A stretch of 64,000 nucleotides of DNA, taken from NCBI GenBank assembly GCA_001939945.1, contig MOEB01000005.1:1-64000 (forward strand), in the 5' to 3' direction. A program made the translations under genes and the position numbers. Below the pieces are notes generated by a model. The model searched no databases. It saw only the letters and a program-made list of their open reading frames with translations, and had not been told where the DNA came from. Positions within the stretch are counted from its first letter, which is position 1. The number at the start of each line of letters is the position of its first letter. Shown one piece after another: positions 6,511 through 54,121 of this stretch. This DNA comes from Aerophototrophica crusticola (GTDB lineage: Bacteria; Pseudomonadota; Alphaproteobacteria; Azospirillales; Azospirillaceae).

Positions 6511-6533
6511 AAAATATGGCCGGAGGGGGCGGC

Positions 6534-6857
6534 ATGGCGTATGAATGGGATGAGGCCAAGCGCCAGGCGAACCTGGCCAAGCACGGCGTGGACTTCGCCT
6601 TGGCAGCGGACCTGGAGTGGAACACGGCGCTGACTGTGCCGGATACCCGCTTCGGCTATGGCGAGGAGCGAAACACGACGTTCGGCTTCATCAGGGACCG
6701 TCTTTACGCCTTGGTCTGGACGCCGCGGGCTGACGGGGTGGTCCGGATCATCAGCCTGAGGAAGGCCAACCGACGGGAGGTCAGGATCTATGGATGGGCA
6801 AACGAGCAAGGACGTCTTGCGGGCACGGATCCAGCAGGCCCTGGAAGCCATCACTGA
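6534..6857 (+). CDS. brnT: BrnT family toxin (ribonuclease)
   Basis: 107 residues. The N-terminal YEWDEAKRQANLAKHGVDF is the BrnT signature, and the conserved RIISLRKANRREVRIY follows near residue 70-85. BrnT is a RelE-like RNase that inhibits translation and is neutralised by BrnA. The start at 6534 is preferred over the in-frame ATG 6516 because GGAGGGGG lies just before it. The reading frame continues about 20 residues past the usual end (WANEQGR...), giving a 68-base overlap with brnA and hence tight translational coupling. The pair sits between aceA and the ScfR regulator. Confidence 0.88.
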   Translation: MAYEWDEAKRQANLAKHGVDFALAADLEWNTALTVPDTRFGYGEERNTTFGFIRDRLYALVWTPRADGVVRIISLRKANRREVRIYGWANEQGRLAGTDPAGPGSHH

Positions 6858-7122
6858 CGAGGAGGAGGCGGCCATCAACGCCGGGATCGTCGCCGACCCC
6901 GACAACCCGGAGCTGACGGAGGAGGACTTCGCCCGCATGCGCCCCCATGCGGAGGTCATGCGGGAGGTCGAGGCCCGCCGCCGCGGCCGCCCCCGGCAGG
7001 ACCAAGTGAAGGAGTCCGTCACCATGCGGGTGGACGCCGACGTGCTGGAGGCTTGGCGCGCCACGGGGCCCGGCTGGCAAAGCCGGATGAACGAGACGCT
7101 GCGCCGCGCCATCGGTCTGTGA
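6790..7122 (+). CDS. brnA: BrnA family antitoxin
   Basis: 110 residues with an acidic N-terminal half (TDEEEAAINAGI, NPELTEEDFARMRP) and a basic hinge (RRRGRPRQ) before the C-terminal ribbon-helix-helix domain. VTMRVDADVLEAW followed by GPGWQSRMNETLRRAI is the BrnA DNA-binding signature. It binds and neutralises BrnT and, with it, represses the operon. GGGAGGTCAGG precedes the ATG. The multi-hairpin element begins 33 bases after the stop. Confidence 0.9.
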   Translation: MDGQTSKDVLRARIQQALEAITDEEEAAINAGIVADPDNPELTEEDFARMRPHAEVMREVEARRRGRPRQDQVKESVTMRVDADVLEAWRATGPGWQSRMNETLRRAIGL

Positions 7123-7154
7123 GCCGATACCGGGTAGCCAGGAAAGGCACCCAA

Positions 7155-7257
7155 GGCCGGCGACCGCCGGCCCGCGGGCCCGTGCCCGCGCAAGCCAAGG
7201 GCGCGGATGCGCCCGCGAGCCTGCCCCGGCCCCCGAGCCGGGGGCGCCTGAGGGAAC
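7155..7257 (+). repeat. Multi-hairpin intergenic element, copy 1 (possible structured RNA)
   Basis: Four hairpins in a row. They are GGCCGGC-GACC-GCCGGCC (7155-7172), CGCGGGC-CCGT-GCCCGCG (7173-7190), an 8-base linker CAAGCCAA, GGGCGC-GGAT-GCGCCC (7199-7214), and CCCCGGC-CCCCGA-GCCGGGG (7224-7243). The tail reads GCGCCTGAGGGAACGTGAAG and runs directly into the scfR start, supplying its GAGGG ribosome binding sequence. A second copy at 27260 keeps the loops GACC, CCGT and GGAT and the AGCCAA linker while stem bases change in compensating pairs. Confidence 0.7.
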
Positions 7258-7263
7258 GTGAAG

Positions 7264-8712
7264 ATGTCCGAAAAGAAGGCCATGCTCGGCCACAAGGTCC
7301 GGCGGTTGCGCCGGGACCTGAAGATGACCCAGGCGCAGATGGCGGAGGAGATCGGCATCTCCCCCAGCTACCTGAACCTGATCGAGGCGAACCAGCGCCC
7401 CCTGACGGTGCCGCTGCTGCTGAAGATCGCCGGCGTCTATGGCATCGACCTGGCCAGCTTCGCGGAGGATGACGAGACGCGGCTGGTGGCGAACCTGCGG
7501 GAGGTGTTCGCCGACCCGCTGTTCGAGACCGGCGACATCAAGAACCAGGACATGAAGGAACTGGCCGCCGTGGCCCCCACCCTGGGGCAGGCGGTGGTGC
7601 AACTCTACCGCGCCTACCGGGAGGCGCGGGAGGACCTTGGCGCGCTGGCGGAGAGCGTGGCCGACGGCGGCAGCCTGCAGGCCAACACGGCCGGGGTCCA
7701 GGCCTTCCCGCAGGAGGATGTGGGGGAATTCTTCCAGTCCCACCAGAACCACTTCCCCGACGTGGAGACGGTGGCTGAATCCTTGTGGATCGATGGCGAC
7801 CTGGATTCGGGTGACCTGTATGGCAGCCTGGCCGCCCACCTGAAGCGGGCGCACGGCGTGTCGGTGAAGCTGATGCCGTCGGAGGTGATCGGCCAGGCGG
7901 TGCGCCGCTATGACCGGCACTCCAAGCGGGTGCTGATCTCGGAGATGCTGCCGCCGTCCGGCCGGGCCTTCCACCTGGCCGCCCAGATCGGCCTGTTGAA
8001 GCACCGGGAAATGCTGGAGGCCCAGGTGGCCCAGGGCCATTTCGCCAGCGAGGAGGCACGGCGGCTGGCGTTGATCGGCCTGTCCAGCTACTTCGCCGGC
8101 GCCGTGATGATGCCCTATGGCCGGTTCATCCAGGCGGCCCGCGCCCTGCGCTATGACGTGGAGGTGCTGATGGGCCGCTTCGTCGCCAGCTTCGAGCAGG
8201 TCTGCCACCGGCTGACGACCTTGCAGCGGCCGGGGGCGAAGGGCGTGCCCTTCTTCTTCCTGCGCATCGACCATGCCGGCAACATCTCGAAACGGTTCAG
8301 CGCGGCGCCCGGCTTCCACTTCGCCCGGTTCGGCGGGGCCTGCCCGCGCTGGACCATCCACGACGCCTTCCGCCTGCCCGGCGCCATCCAGACCCAGCTG
8401 GCGCAACTGCCCGACGGCAGCACCTATTTCTCCATCGCCCGGCGCATCGTGAAGCCGGGCGGCGGCTGGCGGAATCCGGCGCGGCAGTTCGCCATCGCCT
8501 TGGGCACTGACATCGCCCATGCGGGGCAGCTGGTCTATGCCGACGGCATCGACCTGTCCAACCTGGCCGCGGCCACGCCCATCGGCATGAACTGCCGCAT
8601 CTGCCCCCGGCTGGACTGCACCCAGCGGGCCTTCCCGCCCCTGAACCACCGGCTGGCCGTGGATGAGAACATCCGCGGCATCACCAGCTATGTGGGCGTC
8701 GGCGTGACGTGA
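7264..8712 (+). CDS. ScfR/RamB-type short-chain fatty acyl regulator (XRE family)
   Basis: 482 residues. An XRE helix-turn-helix lies at about 8-62 (MTQAQMAEEIGISPSYLNLIE), followed by a region matching the M78/IrrE-like domain and the DUF2083 (ScfR) C-terminal domain. Cysteines C444, C447 and C452 in NCRICPRLDC are the conserved C-terminal cluster of this family. The M78 HExxH motif is not intact (FHLAAQIGLLKH at that position), so peptidase activity is unlikely. ScfR proteins such as RamB, PccR and PrpR sense acyl-CoAs and control glyoxylate or propionate genes. aceA nearby is the obvious target. The start could also be GTG 7258. The gene lies directly after the multi-hairpin element. Confidence 0.88.
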   Translation: MSEKKAMLGHKVRRLRRDLKMTQAQMAEEIGISPSYLNLIEANQRPLTVPLLLKIAGVYGIDLASFAEDDETRLVANLREVFADPLFETGDIKNQDMKELAAVAPTLGQAVVQLYRAYREAREDLGALAESVADGGSLQANTAGVQAFPQEDVGEFFQSHQNHFPDVETVAESLWIDGDLDSGDLYGSLAAHLKRAHGVSVKLMPSEVIGQAVRRYDRHSKRVLISEMLPPSGRAFHLAAQIGLLKHREMLEAQVAQGHFASEEARRLALIGLSSYFAGAVMMPYGRFIQAARALRYDVEVLMGRFVASFEQVCHRLTTLQRPGAKGVPFFFLRIDHAGNISKRFSAAPGFHFARFGGACPRWTIHDAFRLPGAIQTQLAQLPDGSTYFSIARRIVKPGGGWRNPARQFAIALGTDIAHAGQLVYADGIDLSNLAAATPIGMNCRICPRLDCTQRAFPPLNHRLAVDENIRGITSYVGVGVT

Positions 8713-26568: not shown

Positions 26569-27228
26569 ATGCTGGCGACCATGCCTACCGACCTGTCCCT
26601 CCCCGCCGCCACGATCCCTCCCCACCACCGGACCGCCCCCTGGCTTTACGCCGTGGGGGTGGCGGCACCGCTTGCGGCGGTGGCCGTCGTGACCCTGCTG
26701 GGGGCGGACCCGAAATGGACCCTGCGAGACCCGGCCGGGGCGGGCGGGCTGCCGCCCTATGCCGGCTTCTTTTCCAACCTGGGCGTGCTGGCCTGGTGGG
26801 CGGCGGCGGTGGCCTGCGTCCTGGCCGCCCTGGTCGTGAGGTGGGGACAGAACCGGCGCGACAGCTTGGCCGACGCCGCCGCCGCGGGCGGGGGGCTGTC
26901 GGCCGTGCTGGCGCTGGACGACCTGCTGCTGGTGCATGAGGCGCTGCTGCCGCTCTATGTCGGGCTGGATGAGCGCTGGGCGCTGGCGGCGTACGGTACC
27001 GGGGCGCTGGCCTATCTCTGGCGCTTCCGGGCCGTGCACCTGCGGATGGAGACGGGGCTGATGGCCGCGTCCATCGCCCTGCTGGCCGCCAGCTTGGTCG
27101 TGGACCTGATGGAGCTGGACGGCGCCAAGGCCCTGCTGCTGGAGGACGGGGCCAAGTTCGGCGGCATCTGCGCCTGGGCCCTTTACCATCTCCGCCTCGC
27201 CTGGACGCTGCTGGCGGGGCGGGCATAG
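26569..27228 (+). CDS. Multi-pass membrane protein of unknown function
   Basis: 219 residues with about six hydrophobic helices, beginning LYAVGVAAPLAAVAVVTLL and ending near GGICAWALYHLRLAWTLL. A conserved-looking acidic/His motif, LDDLLLVHEALLPL, lies in the middle and could bind a metal, though this is speculation. The start may be 26569 (AGGT before it) or ATG 26581. It is divergent from the methyltransferase gene and convergent with the RND pump gene. No family could be named. Confidence 0.65.
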   Translation: MLATMPTDLSLPAATIPPHHRTAPWLYAVGVAAPLAAVAVVTLLGADPKWTLRDPAGAGGLPPYAGFFSNLGVLAWWAAAVACVLAALVVRWGQNRRDSLADAAAAGGGLSAVLALDDLLLVHEALLPLYVGLDERWALAAYGTGALAYLWRFRAVHLRMETGLMAASIALLAASLVVDLMELDGAKALLLEDGAKFGGICAWALYHLRLAWTLLAGRA

Positions 27229-27259
27229 AGGGGGTTTACGCTTGTCGGGAACCCCCTGT

Positions 27260-27334
27260 GGCGGCGACCGCCGCCGCGCGGGCCCGTGCCCGCGTGAGCC
27301 AAGCCGCGGATGCGGCGCCGGCAATTGAGGGACA
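27260..27334 (+). repeat. Multi-hairpin intergenic element, copy 2
   Basis: GGCGGC-GACC-GCCGCC (27260-27275), CGCGGGC-CCGT-GCCCGCG (27277-27294), linker TGAGCCAA, and GCCGC-GGAT-GCGGC (27303-27316), then a tail with TTGAGGGACACGAAA. Relative to the copy at 7155 all three loops and the linker core are the same, and stems 1 and 3 differ by paired changes. The fourth hairpin is lacking. It lies between convergent genes, 32 bases after the membrane protein stop. Confidence 0.7.
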
Positions 27335-27335
27335 C

Positions 27336-27373
27336 GAAAAAAGGAAGGGCCGCCGGGTTGTCCCCGGCGGCCC
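27336..27373 (-). terminator. Intrinsic terminator of the RND efflux operon
   Basis: Stem GGGCCGCCGGG (27347-27357) with CCCGGCGGCCC (27363-27373), loop of five. On the minus strand it is followed by TTCCTTTTTTCG. It lies 23 bases past the RND permease stop. Confidence 0.85.
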
Positions 27374-51206: not shown

Positions 51207-51274
51207 CTTGCCGAGGGCTTGCCCCCGGCACGCCGGCGCCTGAGGGGGCCCTTGGTCGCGGACGACCAAGGGCC
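51207..51274 (+). repeat. Partial relative of the multi-hairpin element plus a strong hairpin
   Basis: GCTTGCCCCCGGC-AC-GCCGGCGCC then TGAGGG shares the GGCGCCTGAGGG tail and the CTGCCCC...GCCGG layout with the last module of the copy at 7155. It is followed at once by a perfect 12-bp hairpin, GGCCCTTGGTCG (51247-51258) / CGACCAAGGGCC (51263-51274), loop CGGA, in the 3' region of the receptor transcript. Relationship to the 7155 element is tentative. Confidence 0.4.
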
Positions 51275-51280
51275 AAGGGA

Positions 51281-54121
51281 TCAGAACGTGGCCCGGACGC
51301 CGGCGTAGAAGAACCGGCCGATCGGGTCGTACACGTCGGCGGCGGTTTCCGTGCCGGTGATGTTGGCCGGGAACGGGGTGCCGATGACGGGCGGGTTGCG
51401 GTCCAGCAGGTTGTTGACGCCGAAGTACAGCTGGTACTTGTCCGCCACGGTGTAGCGGGCCTGCACGTCGTGATAGGCCAGCTGCGGCAGGCGGTTGTCC
51501 TCGAACTCCGACGTGTTGTCGATGTTCGCGCCGCTGAAGTAGCGGACCGTCCAGTTGAAGGCGAACGGGCCCTGCTCGTAGGTGGTGCGCAGGTTGAAGC
51601 GATAGCGGGAGTACCCGACCTCACCGGCGAAGTCGATCGCCTCGGCGCCCTTGAAGGCGGTGGAGGCGTTCTTGTCCAGGTAGGTGCCGATGAAGTTGAA
51701 GTTCACCCGGCTGTCGCCCAGCGCCTCGGTGTAGTCGGCCAGGTCGACGGTGTAGTCGAGCTGCACGTCCACGCCGCGGGCCTTCTGCGTCGCCACGTTC
51801 TGCTGGGTCAGGTCCAGCCCGGTGATCAGGCCGGTGACCGGGTCACGCTGCACCTGGCTGCAGAAGACGTTGCCGGGGTACGGGGTCTGGTCCACGCACT
51901 GGTTGACGGCCGTCTGGCGGGCGATGCCCTGGATGGCGTCCTTGATCTTGATGTCCCAGTAGTCGACCGTGACCGACAGGCCCGGGGCGAAGGTGGGGGT
52001 GAACACCGCACCCACGGTCCAGGTGTCCGCCTTCTCCGCGTCCAGGTCCGGGTTGCCGCTGTTGAAGCCCGGGATGGACAGCAGGTCCTTGTCCGCCGGC
52101 TGGAAGCCGCCGCGGGCGATGGCCTCGCGGATGCCCGGCGTCGCGGCGCAGTTGGCCGCACGGGTCGCGTTCTCGTCGCGGGCCCCGTCGGCGCAGGGGT
52201 CGTTGACGCTGGAGAAGGTCTGCTGCGGGGCGTCGAACAGCTCGGAGATGTTCGGCGCGCGCACGGCGCGGGCATAGGTGGCCCGGATGCGGACATCCTC
52301 CACCGGGGCATACTCGGCGCCGCCCTTGTAGCTCCACAGCTTGCCGACGGTGCTGTAGTCGGAATAGCGGACCGCGCCGTCGATGCCCAGGTAGTCCACG
52401 AAGGGCATGTCCGCGAGCAGCGGCACGTTCACCTCGGCGAAGCCTTCCCAGACGTCGTAGCTGCCGGTGGTGTTGGCCGCCTGGTTGCCCGAGGACAGGC
52501 CCGACAGGGTCAGCGGGTCGAACTCGGTGGAGCTGGTCTCCTTCCGCCACTCGCCGCCGAAGGCCACGCCCAGGGCGCCGGCCGGCAGGTCGATCACGTC
52601 GCCGGTTATGGTCAGGCTGCCCACCTGCTGCTTCACGTCGGCATCGTAGGTGGAGCTGGCGCGGACATAGTCCAGCCCCGCCCCGGTGGCGGCGCCGGCG
52701 CCGAACAGGTTGATCGGCACGCAGCCCAGGGCGCGGGCGCCGGGGTCACGGCAGACCACGGTGCCGTTCGGGCCCGGGATGGCGTCCAGGGCCTGGGCCA
52801 TGCGCTGGCTGTTGAACACGCCCGTGCTGGTCTGCGCCTCCGTCACCTTGCCGTAGGCGTAGTAGACATTGTACTTCCAGCTCGTGTCCGGGATCAGGTC
52901 GCCCTCGAAGCCCGTGGCGAAGCGGAAGGTCTGGCGGGTCACGTCGGACTCGCGCAGGCCCAGCTCGTTGAAGCGGCGCTCGAACTGCAACTGGTCGACG
53001 CCGGCCGGCCGGCCGGCCAGCAAGGCCGCCGGGATGAACGGGTTGGTGACCGGGATGGACAGGAACGGCGCGTCCGGCCCGATGCCCACCTGCTGGTTGT
53101 CGCCGAAGGCGATGGCCTCGGACTGGCTGTTCGCCTCGGTCCGGGCATAGGTGCCCTCGAAGAACCAGCGGACATTGTCCGTCAGGTCATAGCGGGCCAG
53201 GGAGGACAGCAGGTAACGCTCGGTTGGGACCTGGATCAGGCGGTCCTGGTTGCGGTTGTAGCCGTTGGCGTTGCGCACGAACGGGGTGCCGTCCGGGTTC
53301 AGCAGGTCGGTGGTGTCGCCGCTGTCATCCGGCAGGTTGTAGTAGTACAGGCCGCCGGGCCCGAAGAAGCTGTAGGCCGGGCGGGAGATGCGGCCATTGA
53401 CGGCGTTGCGGCTGAGGTCGACGGACGAGAACTCGCGGTCGCGCGAGTAGATGGCCTTGGTCTTGTCGTACACCACGTTCAGGGCGACGTTGCCCTTGCC
53501 GTCGGCCATGTTGGCGCCGATGGTGGCATAGGCGTGGGTGTTCTCGCCGTCGCCCTCATCGGTGATGCCGTACTGCGCGCCGGCAGCCGCACCCTCGAAA
53601 TCATCCTTCAGGATGAAGTTCACCACGCCGGCCACCGCCTCTGAGCCGTACACGGCCGACGCGCCGCCGGTCACCACCTCGACCCGCTCCAGCAGCTCGG
53701 TCGGGATGGAGTTGATGTCCACCGCGTTGCTGCCGCCGGTGCCGCCCACGTGGCGGCGGCCGTTCACCAGCACCAGGGTCCGCTCGGTGCCCAGGTTGCG
53801 CAGGTTGATCAGGTTCAGGCCGGCGGCGGTGGTGGTGAAGTTGGAGTTGGTGTTGGACACCGCCGGCACGCCCACCGACGGGATCTGGTTCAGGAATTCG
53901 GCAGCGTTGGTGGTGCCGCGGGCCTGCAGGGCCTCCTCGCTCACCACGGTCACGGGGGTCGGCGCGGTCAGGTTGGTGCGCGCGATGCGCGACCCGGTGA
54001 CCACGATCTCCTCCAGGGCCGTATCCTGGGTCTGGGCAGCGGCAGGCAGGGCAAGGCTGACAAGGGCGGCGCCGGCCAGCAGCCAGGCGCGCGAGCCCGC
54101 GATGGTACGCGGAGTGTGCAT
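51281..54121 (-). CDS. TonB-dependent receptor
   Basis: 946 residues. A signal peptide (WLLAGAALVSLALPAAAQ) is followed by the TonB box LEEIVVTGSR, a plug domain (about 50-170, with LVLVNGRRHVGGTGGSNAVD and VVTGGASAVYGSEAVAGVVNF in part) and a 22-strand-type barrel ending in Phe (FYAGVRATF). It takes up a large ligand across the outer membrane using TonB energy. The plug type is the one common in alphaproteobacteria for peptides or sugars as well as siderophores, so the ligand cannot be named. No TonB, sensor or permease gene is adjacent. Confidence 0.93.
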   Translation of the reverse strand: MHTPRTIAGSRAWLLAGAALVSLALPAAAQTQDTALEEIVVTGSRIARTNLTAPTPVTVVSEEALQARGTTNAAEFLNQIPSVGVPAVSNTNSNFTTTAAGLNLINLRNLGTERTLVLVNGRRHVGGTGGSNAVDINSIPTELLERVEVVTGGASAVYGSEAVAGVVNFILKDDFEGAAAGAQYGITDEGDGENTHAYATIGANMADGKGNVALNVVYDKTKAIYSRDREFSSVDLSRNAVNGRISRPAYSFFGPGGLYYYNLPDDSGDTTDLLNPDGTPFVRNANGYNRNQDRLIQVPTERYLLSSLARYDLTDNVRWFFEGTYARTEANSQSEAIAFGDNQQVGIGPDAPFLSIPVTNPFIPAALLAGRPAGVDQLQFERRFNELGLRESDVTRQTFRFATGFEGDLIPDTSWKYNVYYAYGKVTEAQTSTGVFNSQRMAQALDAIPGPNGTVVCRDPGARALGCVPINLFGAGAATGAGLDYVRASSTYDADVKQQVGSLTITGDVIDLPAGALGVAFGGEWRKETSSTEFDPLTLSGLSSGNQAANTTGSYDVWEGFAEVNVPLLADMPFVDYLGIDGAVRYSDYSTVGKLWSYKGGAEYAPVEDVRIRATYARAVRAPNISELFDAPQQTFSSVNDPCADGARDENATRAANCAATPGIREAIARGGFQPADKDLLSIPGFNSGNPDLDAEKADTWTVGAVFTPTFAPGLSVTVDYWDIKIKDAIQGIARQTAVNQCVDQTPYPGNVFCSQVQRDPVTGLITGLDLTQQNVATQKARGVDVQLDYTVDLADYTEALGDSRVNFNFIGTYLDKNASTAFKGAEAIDFAGEVGYSRYRFNLRTTYEQGPFAFNWTVRYFSGANIDNTSEFEDNRLPQLAYHDVQARYTVADKYQLYFGVNNLLDRNPPVIGTPFPANITGTETAADVYDPIGRFFYAGVRATF

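Follow-up and report, generated by a model that had tools for sequence, protein, structure and literature searches.

A stop-codon-associated multi-hairpin repeat of Alphaproteobacteria as a probable non-autonomous mobile element

In a 64,000-nt stretch of the Aerophototrophica crusticola genome (contig MOEB01000005.1, positions 1 to 64,000; hereafter the window), two short multi-hairpin sequences share their loops and linker while their stems differ on both arms. Such compensatory change raises the question of whether these sequences are a structured RNA or a palindromic mobile element, the two readings offered by the original prediction. Both copies lie where they had been placed (Table 1), and both were recovered by a covariance model, R1, which describes three hairpins over 85 positions and was trained on 21 further copies with the window copies left out. 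They are the only significant R1 matches in the window, the next one having an E value of 0.07, and the pattern AGCCAAG-N(0-4)-GCGGATGC is found at two places in the window, whereas shuffled sequences contain it 0.00 times on average. Two parts had been missed, namely the outer left hairpin of copy 2 and a fourth hairpin inserted into copy 1. In a tail relative proposed at 51207 the 12-mer GGCGCCTGAGGG is present without mismatch and precedes a strong hairpin beside a convergent gene's stop codon, but the site is not a full member of the family (R1 12.4 bits, E 0.35, not significant); its layout makes it a possible core-less derivative of the kind described below for loci L222 and L224. Among the neighbouring features, a BrnT/BrnA toxin-antitoxin pair (6525-7122) lies immediately upstream of copy 1, and a strong hairpin, GGGCCGCCGGG-TTGT-CCCCGGCGGCCC (27348-27373), possibly a terminator, directly follows copy 2 between the convergent genes. 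Elsewhere in the window a COG3860 RNA (RF02940, 50434-50494, + strand) and a terC RNA (RF03067, 39125-39182, - strand) match Rfam above the gathering score.

Table 1 Features of the two window copies and of the candidate derivative.
Feature	Position	Strand	Context	Basis
Copy 1, type A core without outer hairpins	7153..7257	+	between brnA (6790-7122) and the ScfR gene (ATG 7264)	R1 match 7153-7224, 66.8 bits, E 3e-14; extended to the tail by eye
Copy 1 hairpin 1, loop GACC (GGCCGGC-GACC-GCCGGCC)	7155..7172	+		sequence reading and covariance model
Copy 1 hairpin 2, loop CCGT (CGCGGGC-CCGT-GCCCGCG)	7173..7190	+		sequence reading and covariance model
Copy 1 unpaired conserved linker CAAGCCAA	7191..7198	+		conservation over 99 own-genome copies
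Copy 1 hairpin 3, loop GGAT (GGGCGC-GGAT-GCGCCC)	7199..7214	+		sequence reading and covariance model
Copy 1 extra hairpin module GAGCCTGCCCCGGCCCCCGAGCCGGGGGC	7215..7246 (hairpin 7223-7245)	+	ahead of the tail	present in several other copies, e.g. L104, L107, L113
Copy 1 conserved tail GCGCCTGAGGGAAC, including GAGGG 7250-7254	7244..7257	+		sequence reading
TAG stop of the upstream gene 26569-27228	27226..27228	+	abuts copy 2	gene call
Copy 2 outer left hairpin (AGGGGGTT...AACCCCCT)	27229..27257	+	begins directly 3' of the TAG stop	sequence reading
Copy 2, type B core	27257..27338	+	between two convergent genes	R1 match, 71.0 bits, E 3e-15
Copy 2 hairpin 1, loop GACC	27260..27275	+		sequence reading and covariance model
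Copy 2 hairpin 2, loop CCGT	27277..27294	+		sequence reading and covariance model
Copy 2 unpaired conserved linker TGAGCCAA	27295..27302	+		sequence reading and conservation
Copy 2 hairpin 3, loop GGAT	27303..27316	+		sequence reading and covariance model
Copy 2 conserved tail GCCGGCAATTGAGGGAC	27317..27333	+		sequence reading and covariance model
Candidate core-less derivative, tail GGCGCCTGAGGG with GGCCCTTGGTCG/CGACCAAGGGCC hairpin	51230..51269	+	near the stop codon of the convergent gene 51281-54121	exact tail 12-mer

The pair, described as two copies 20 kb apart, proved to be the local view of a large family. Covariance model searches detected at least 149 copies in the source genome and 94 and 106 in two relatives, all of these numbers being lower bounds, with 150 candidates scored in the source genome and the genomes of the relatives sampled in part. 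Matches were obtained in all seven same-genus genomes tested and in 27 of the 39 genomes sampled within the family Azospirillaceae, and weaker relatives (E ≤ 1e-4) in 17 of 240 sampled Alphaproteobacteria. Plasmid records, from Niveispirillum, Azospirillum, Tistrella and Methylobacterium, contained solely fragments. What had looked like a two-copy curiosity is thereby a family of more than 100 copies per genome with a clear anatomy. A search of mostly open literature returned descriptions of REP and MITE relatives and none of this element; the family seems undescribed so far, its general kind (REP/MITE-like repeats) being known.

Full copies measure about 150 bp and have the order TNA-TACC, outer hairpin hp0, hairpin 1 (loop GAC[CT]), hairpin 2, linker AAGCCAA, hairpin 3 (loop GGAT), GCCCGGCG, YTGAGGG tail, outer hairpin hp4, GGTA-TNA; across the family the number of hairpins varies from three to five and the size from about 110 to 160 bp. 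The unpaired motifs of 99 own-genome copies (loop 1 GAC, linker AGCCAA, loop GGAT, GCCCGGCG and TGAGG) are 91-100% conserved, and the paired columns of the same copies 84% on average; within the linker AAGCCAA every position is 96-100% conserved except the first A (63%). The left outer hairpin is present in 142 of 227 copies (2 in shuffled controls) and the right one in 86 (5 in shuffled controls), while many copies are devoid of one or both, which leaves their boundaries uncertain. Two types of ends were distinguished: type A (TNA-TACC...GGTA-TNA), which recurs in distant Alphaproteobacteria (e.g. TAATACCAAG...CTGGTATAA at L285), and type B, which starts with TAG-AGCG, ends with GGGTC-TAG and is flanked by NTAG, N being mostly T. 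The terminal inverted repeats are short, consisting of TACC/GGTA only, and are accompanied by subterminal hairpins.

The element behaves as a mosaic of modules. In genome G024 of genus g2 (L228-L257) a long stem, variable and 30-45 nt in size, stands in place of hairpin 2, with linker, hairpin 3 and tail remaining fixed. In other families of the class (L281, L283, L291, L293) a GGCCATTGAGGGCC-type hairpin occupies the place of hairpin 1. Core-less derivatives (hp0-tail-hp4) occur at L222:484-575 and L224:8030-8160, and tandem arrays of about five 108-bp units made of the element were found at L075:2258-2835 (G023:C20) and at L272/L273/L259. Several of the latter arrays reside on one IMG/VR contig (2708742415_000004), listed as viral and probably a prophage.

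The compensatory stem change with fixed loops, predicted from two copies, holds throughout the family. Among own-genome copies 98.2% of the pair cells are paired and 15 of the 20 pairs have changed on both sides; cells with two-sided change number 248 against 69.5 in shuffled alignments, and none of 500 shuffles reached this value, although the copies are related to one another and such controls overstate their independence. Sliding the pairing reduces the paired cells to 35-48%, and most unpaired core motifs are more than 90% identical. The copies of the alphaproteobacterium AAP38 gave the same result (97.8% paired, 16 pairs with two-sided change), as did copies from the class as a whole (98.0%, 17 pairs). 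Stem 2, for example, occurs as GCGGGC, GCGGCC, GCGACC, GCGCCC, GCCCGC, GCGCAC and other variants with nearly always perfect complementarity. The conserved base-paired fold characteristic of structured RNAs is therefore present; the original prediction hinged on further copies and on covariation among them, and both were found.

The mobile character of the element was apparent from the comparison of forty 20-kb stretches each from Niveispirillum cyanobacteriorum (G012) and AAP38 (G037), with about 92% identity in the flanks. Eighteen aligned orthologous sites carry the element in both species, and at 17 further sites all or most of it is present in one species only, the inserted length being mostly about 110 or 150-160 bp. 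At the cleanest of these sites (L167/L201) the filled sequence, TTTAA|TACC...GGTA|TAAC, is matched by the empty sequence GTAACG; therefore, the TAA stop codon was duplicated on insertion. Of 19 full type A copies, 12 are bordered at fixed offsets by identical 3-mers, all of them TNA (mean of 3.8 in shuffles, one in 5000 as high); strict matching of TACC/GGTA yielded 10 pairs, 4 of which are identical, a number too small for a verdict. Matching duplications were also seen by eye at the core-less copies L222 (TGA/TGA) and L224 (TAA/TAA), hinting that the ends of the element may be enough for it to move, provided that the core had not been lost afterwards. Dispersed non-coding copies (at least 149), polymorphism between relatives and target-site duplication, three features of MITEs, were observed, in agreement with the palindromic mobile element that the original prediction had offered as one of its readings.

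A scan of about 2.5 Mb from three genomes for TNA-TACC...GGTA-TNA pairs with a hairpin returned no autonomous, gene-bearing element with these ends. Cores with unusual content behind a right-end hairpin, considered as autonomous partners, proved to be copies that had decayed or were devoid of a core. The only DUF4096 IS5-like transposase of the genome was considered as the mover and rejected, its own element having unrelated GGCCTGTGGACATTC ends.

Where the element resides was assessed in three genomes from gene calls of our own making. Intergenic positions account for 219 of 227 copies; 69 copies lie in convergent gaps, which are enriched (p 3e-11; 136 among the 1113 background gaps that are 100 bp or longer), and 24 in divergent gaps, which are depleted (350 of 1113, p 4e-11). 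The 3' end of a gene is at most 75 nt away for 173 of the 219 intergenic copies. No strand preference was detected between co-directional neighbours (55 copies sense, 71 antisense, p 0.18). When a sense gene lies upstream, the left hairpin starts between -3 and +6 nt from its stop codon in 39 of 83 cases (19 TGA, 9 TAA and 11 TAG). Since TGA and TAA are themselves TNA, a gene hit at its stop codon can retain a stop. The bias may stem from a preference of the enzyme or from the purging of other insertions.

We propose that the copies belong to a non-autonomous, MITE/REP-like mobile element of Alphaproteobacteria, presumably moved in trans, folded when spreading and tolerated at stop codons, and we put the probability of this reading at roughly 80%. 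Some enzyme would mobilise the element in trans, and insertion would duplicate a 3-bp TNA (type A) or take place into TAG sites (type B). A stop would be regained from the bases duplicated or from the end of the element itself, and the gene would stay intact, such that insertions at stop codons survive, while those in genes and promoters would be lost. Spreading copies would have to fold to be recognised, probably as a single strand, the one that reads AGCCAAG, and after insertion the pairing would drift.

Evidence on this last step comes from the 18 shared sites, in which 321 pairs were comparable: 284 are the same in both species, 12 differ on a single side yet still pair, 14 have lost pairing in one species, and 11 differ on both sides and still pair. 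Single changes that preserve pairing are about as frequent as those that disrupt it (12 and 14), as drift would give, hence continued selection for pairing at each site is not detected, in a small sample of 26 single changes. The 11 two-sided changes are mostly clustered in a few loci, which suggests occasional replacement of a whole stem, via conversion from another copy or templated repair. Such replacements (L171/L211 and L147/L212) go beyond drift alone and could result from gene conversion or from local selection. Because selection for pairing at individual sites is not detected, the genome-wide covariation is best explained by a folding requirement on the copies that spread, and it most likely reflects a demand on copies still spreading.

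The left outer hairpins carry 31 distinct G-U pairs against 5 A-C (p 1e-5). As a double-stranded DNA cruciform would be symmetric in this respect, a folded single strand, either DNA or RNA, is favoured as the source of this tolerance. The excess persists for copies without a sense neighbour (raw counts of 11:0 for antisense and 7:0 for divergent neighbours), and the unpaired columns show no asymmetry between C>T (1.9%) and G>A (1.7%). The right hairpin shows no significant excess (13:8), and the 60:26 count of the core stems is biased by the model. This strand-specific signal suggests that the folded single strand is the recognised form. A more specific proposal, which we regard as tentative, is that of a new class-wide alphaproteobacterial element that would move as a folded single strand with three to five hairpins, be recognised through its shape, fixed loops and linker by a non-RAYT enzyme, and enter stop codons through a TNA/TAG preference. 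If so, its spread would be almost harmless to genes.

The covariation could also have arisen without any selection for folding, by template switching from arm to arm in quasi-palindromes combined with gene conversion among the copies. The block changes of whole stems at shared loci, the tandem arrays, the deletions within copies and the abundance of donor copies are all compatible with such a process; it leaves unexplained, however, how loops and linkers stay more than 90% fixed while stems vary and why G-U is tolerated over A-C, and we deem it unlikely.

Alternatively, each copy could be a functional structured RNA, a 3'-UTR/terminator or a regulatory module that would act on mRNA stability, on ribosome stalling at stop codons or through protein binding, spread by duplication and selected at its site for this role. 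Ribosomes stall in E. coli at REPs located at most 15 nt from a stop codon (PMC12306157), and by analogy a side effect of the element on translation is plausible. The strong covariation with fixed loops, the stop-codon placement and the G-U tolerance of the left hairpins would also suit a transcribed function. This reading is nevertheless quite improbable, given that sense and antisense copies are balanced, that broken and kept single changes are similarly frequent, that the G-U excess is independent of a sense neighbour and that close species disagree at about half of the sites that could be compared. Furthermore, Rfam gives no match at either window copy at the gathering threshold and none at E ≤ 1 for 7080-7330. 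We caution that a strong covariation signal among intergenic repeats of bacteria need not imply an RNA function for the host, pairing in this family being not detectably maintained once a copy has inserted.

Membership in the GTAG or CGTC superfamilies of REPs, moved by RAYT tyrosine transposases, is very unlikely. The element has three to five hairpins instead of one, its hairpins lack the GTAG/CGTC tag on inspection of the flanks (TNA/TACC in type A and NTAG in type B), and its 3-bp duplication is unlike IS200/IS605-type insertion. The RAYT domain (Y1_Tnp, PF01797) had no match in the source genome, while the positive controls matched. Shared with REPs are the high copy number, the palindromic structure, the position 3' of genes and termini that supply stops: REPs are located downstream of genes and the ends of GTAG REPs often provide a TAG stop (Di Nocera and colleagues, PMC3733652).

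That copy 1 forms part of the 5' leader of the ScfR gene or regulates it, as had also been suggested, is hardly tenable: copy 1 ends 7 nt before the ATG and its tail resembles a Shine-Dalgarno sequence, but the ScfR gene is present in all ten other same-genus genomes and in none of them preceded by the element, which refutes a conserved function, and the same element adjoins unrelated genes more than 100 times. The gene beside copy 2 likewise is without the element in the eight relatives with a usable match. The GAGGG of the tail lies at a plausible distance from the ATG and may act as a Shine-Dalgarno sequence in this genome only, and a start codon follows the tail GAGG within 25 nt in 16 of 199 copies; the link of copy 1 to ScfR is at most a local by-product.

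A non-autonomous mobile element thus accounts best for the family, which lends itself to the study, as a natural experiment, of how selfish repeats avoid harm by inserting at stop codons. Intergenic mosaic palindromes are known from Alphaproteobacteria, such as the rhizobial RIME/ABC mosaic elements and the Caulobacter intergenic repeats, which share this general description with the element. Target duplications of the TNA type are characteristic of the IS1031 group of the IS5 family, with which the element shares its 3-bp duplication; no matching transposase or terminal repeat was found in the source genome. Like REPs and BIMEs of the GTAG and CGTC superfamilies (PMC3733652), it is a high-copy palindrome 3' of genes that favours convergent pairs and whose termini often give stops, and it differs from them by the absence of both the tag and a RAYT, by its three to five hairpins, its conserved linker and tail, its size of about 110-160 bp and its TNA duplication. 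From prokaryotic MITEs (reviewed in PMC10969869) it is set apart by a high GC content, 4-bp terminal repeats with hairpins, covarying hairpins with fixed loops, stop-codon sites and the absence of a parent IS from the roughly 2.5 Mb scanned, while it shares with them the small size, the non-coding and dispersed nature, the short target duplication, the polymorphism between relatives and, as far as TACC/GGTA may be so regarded, the short inverted ends.
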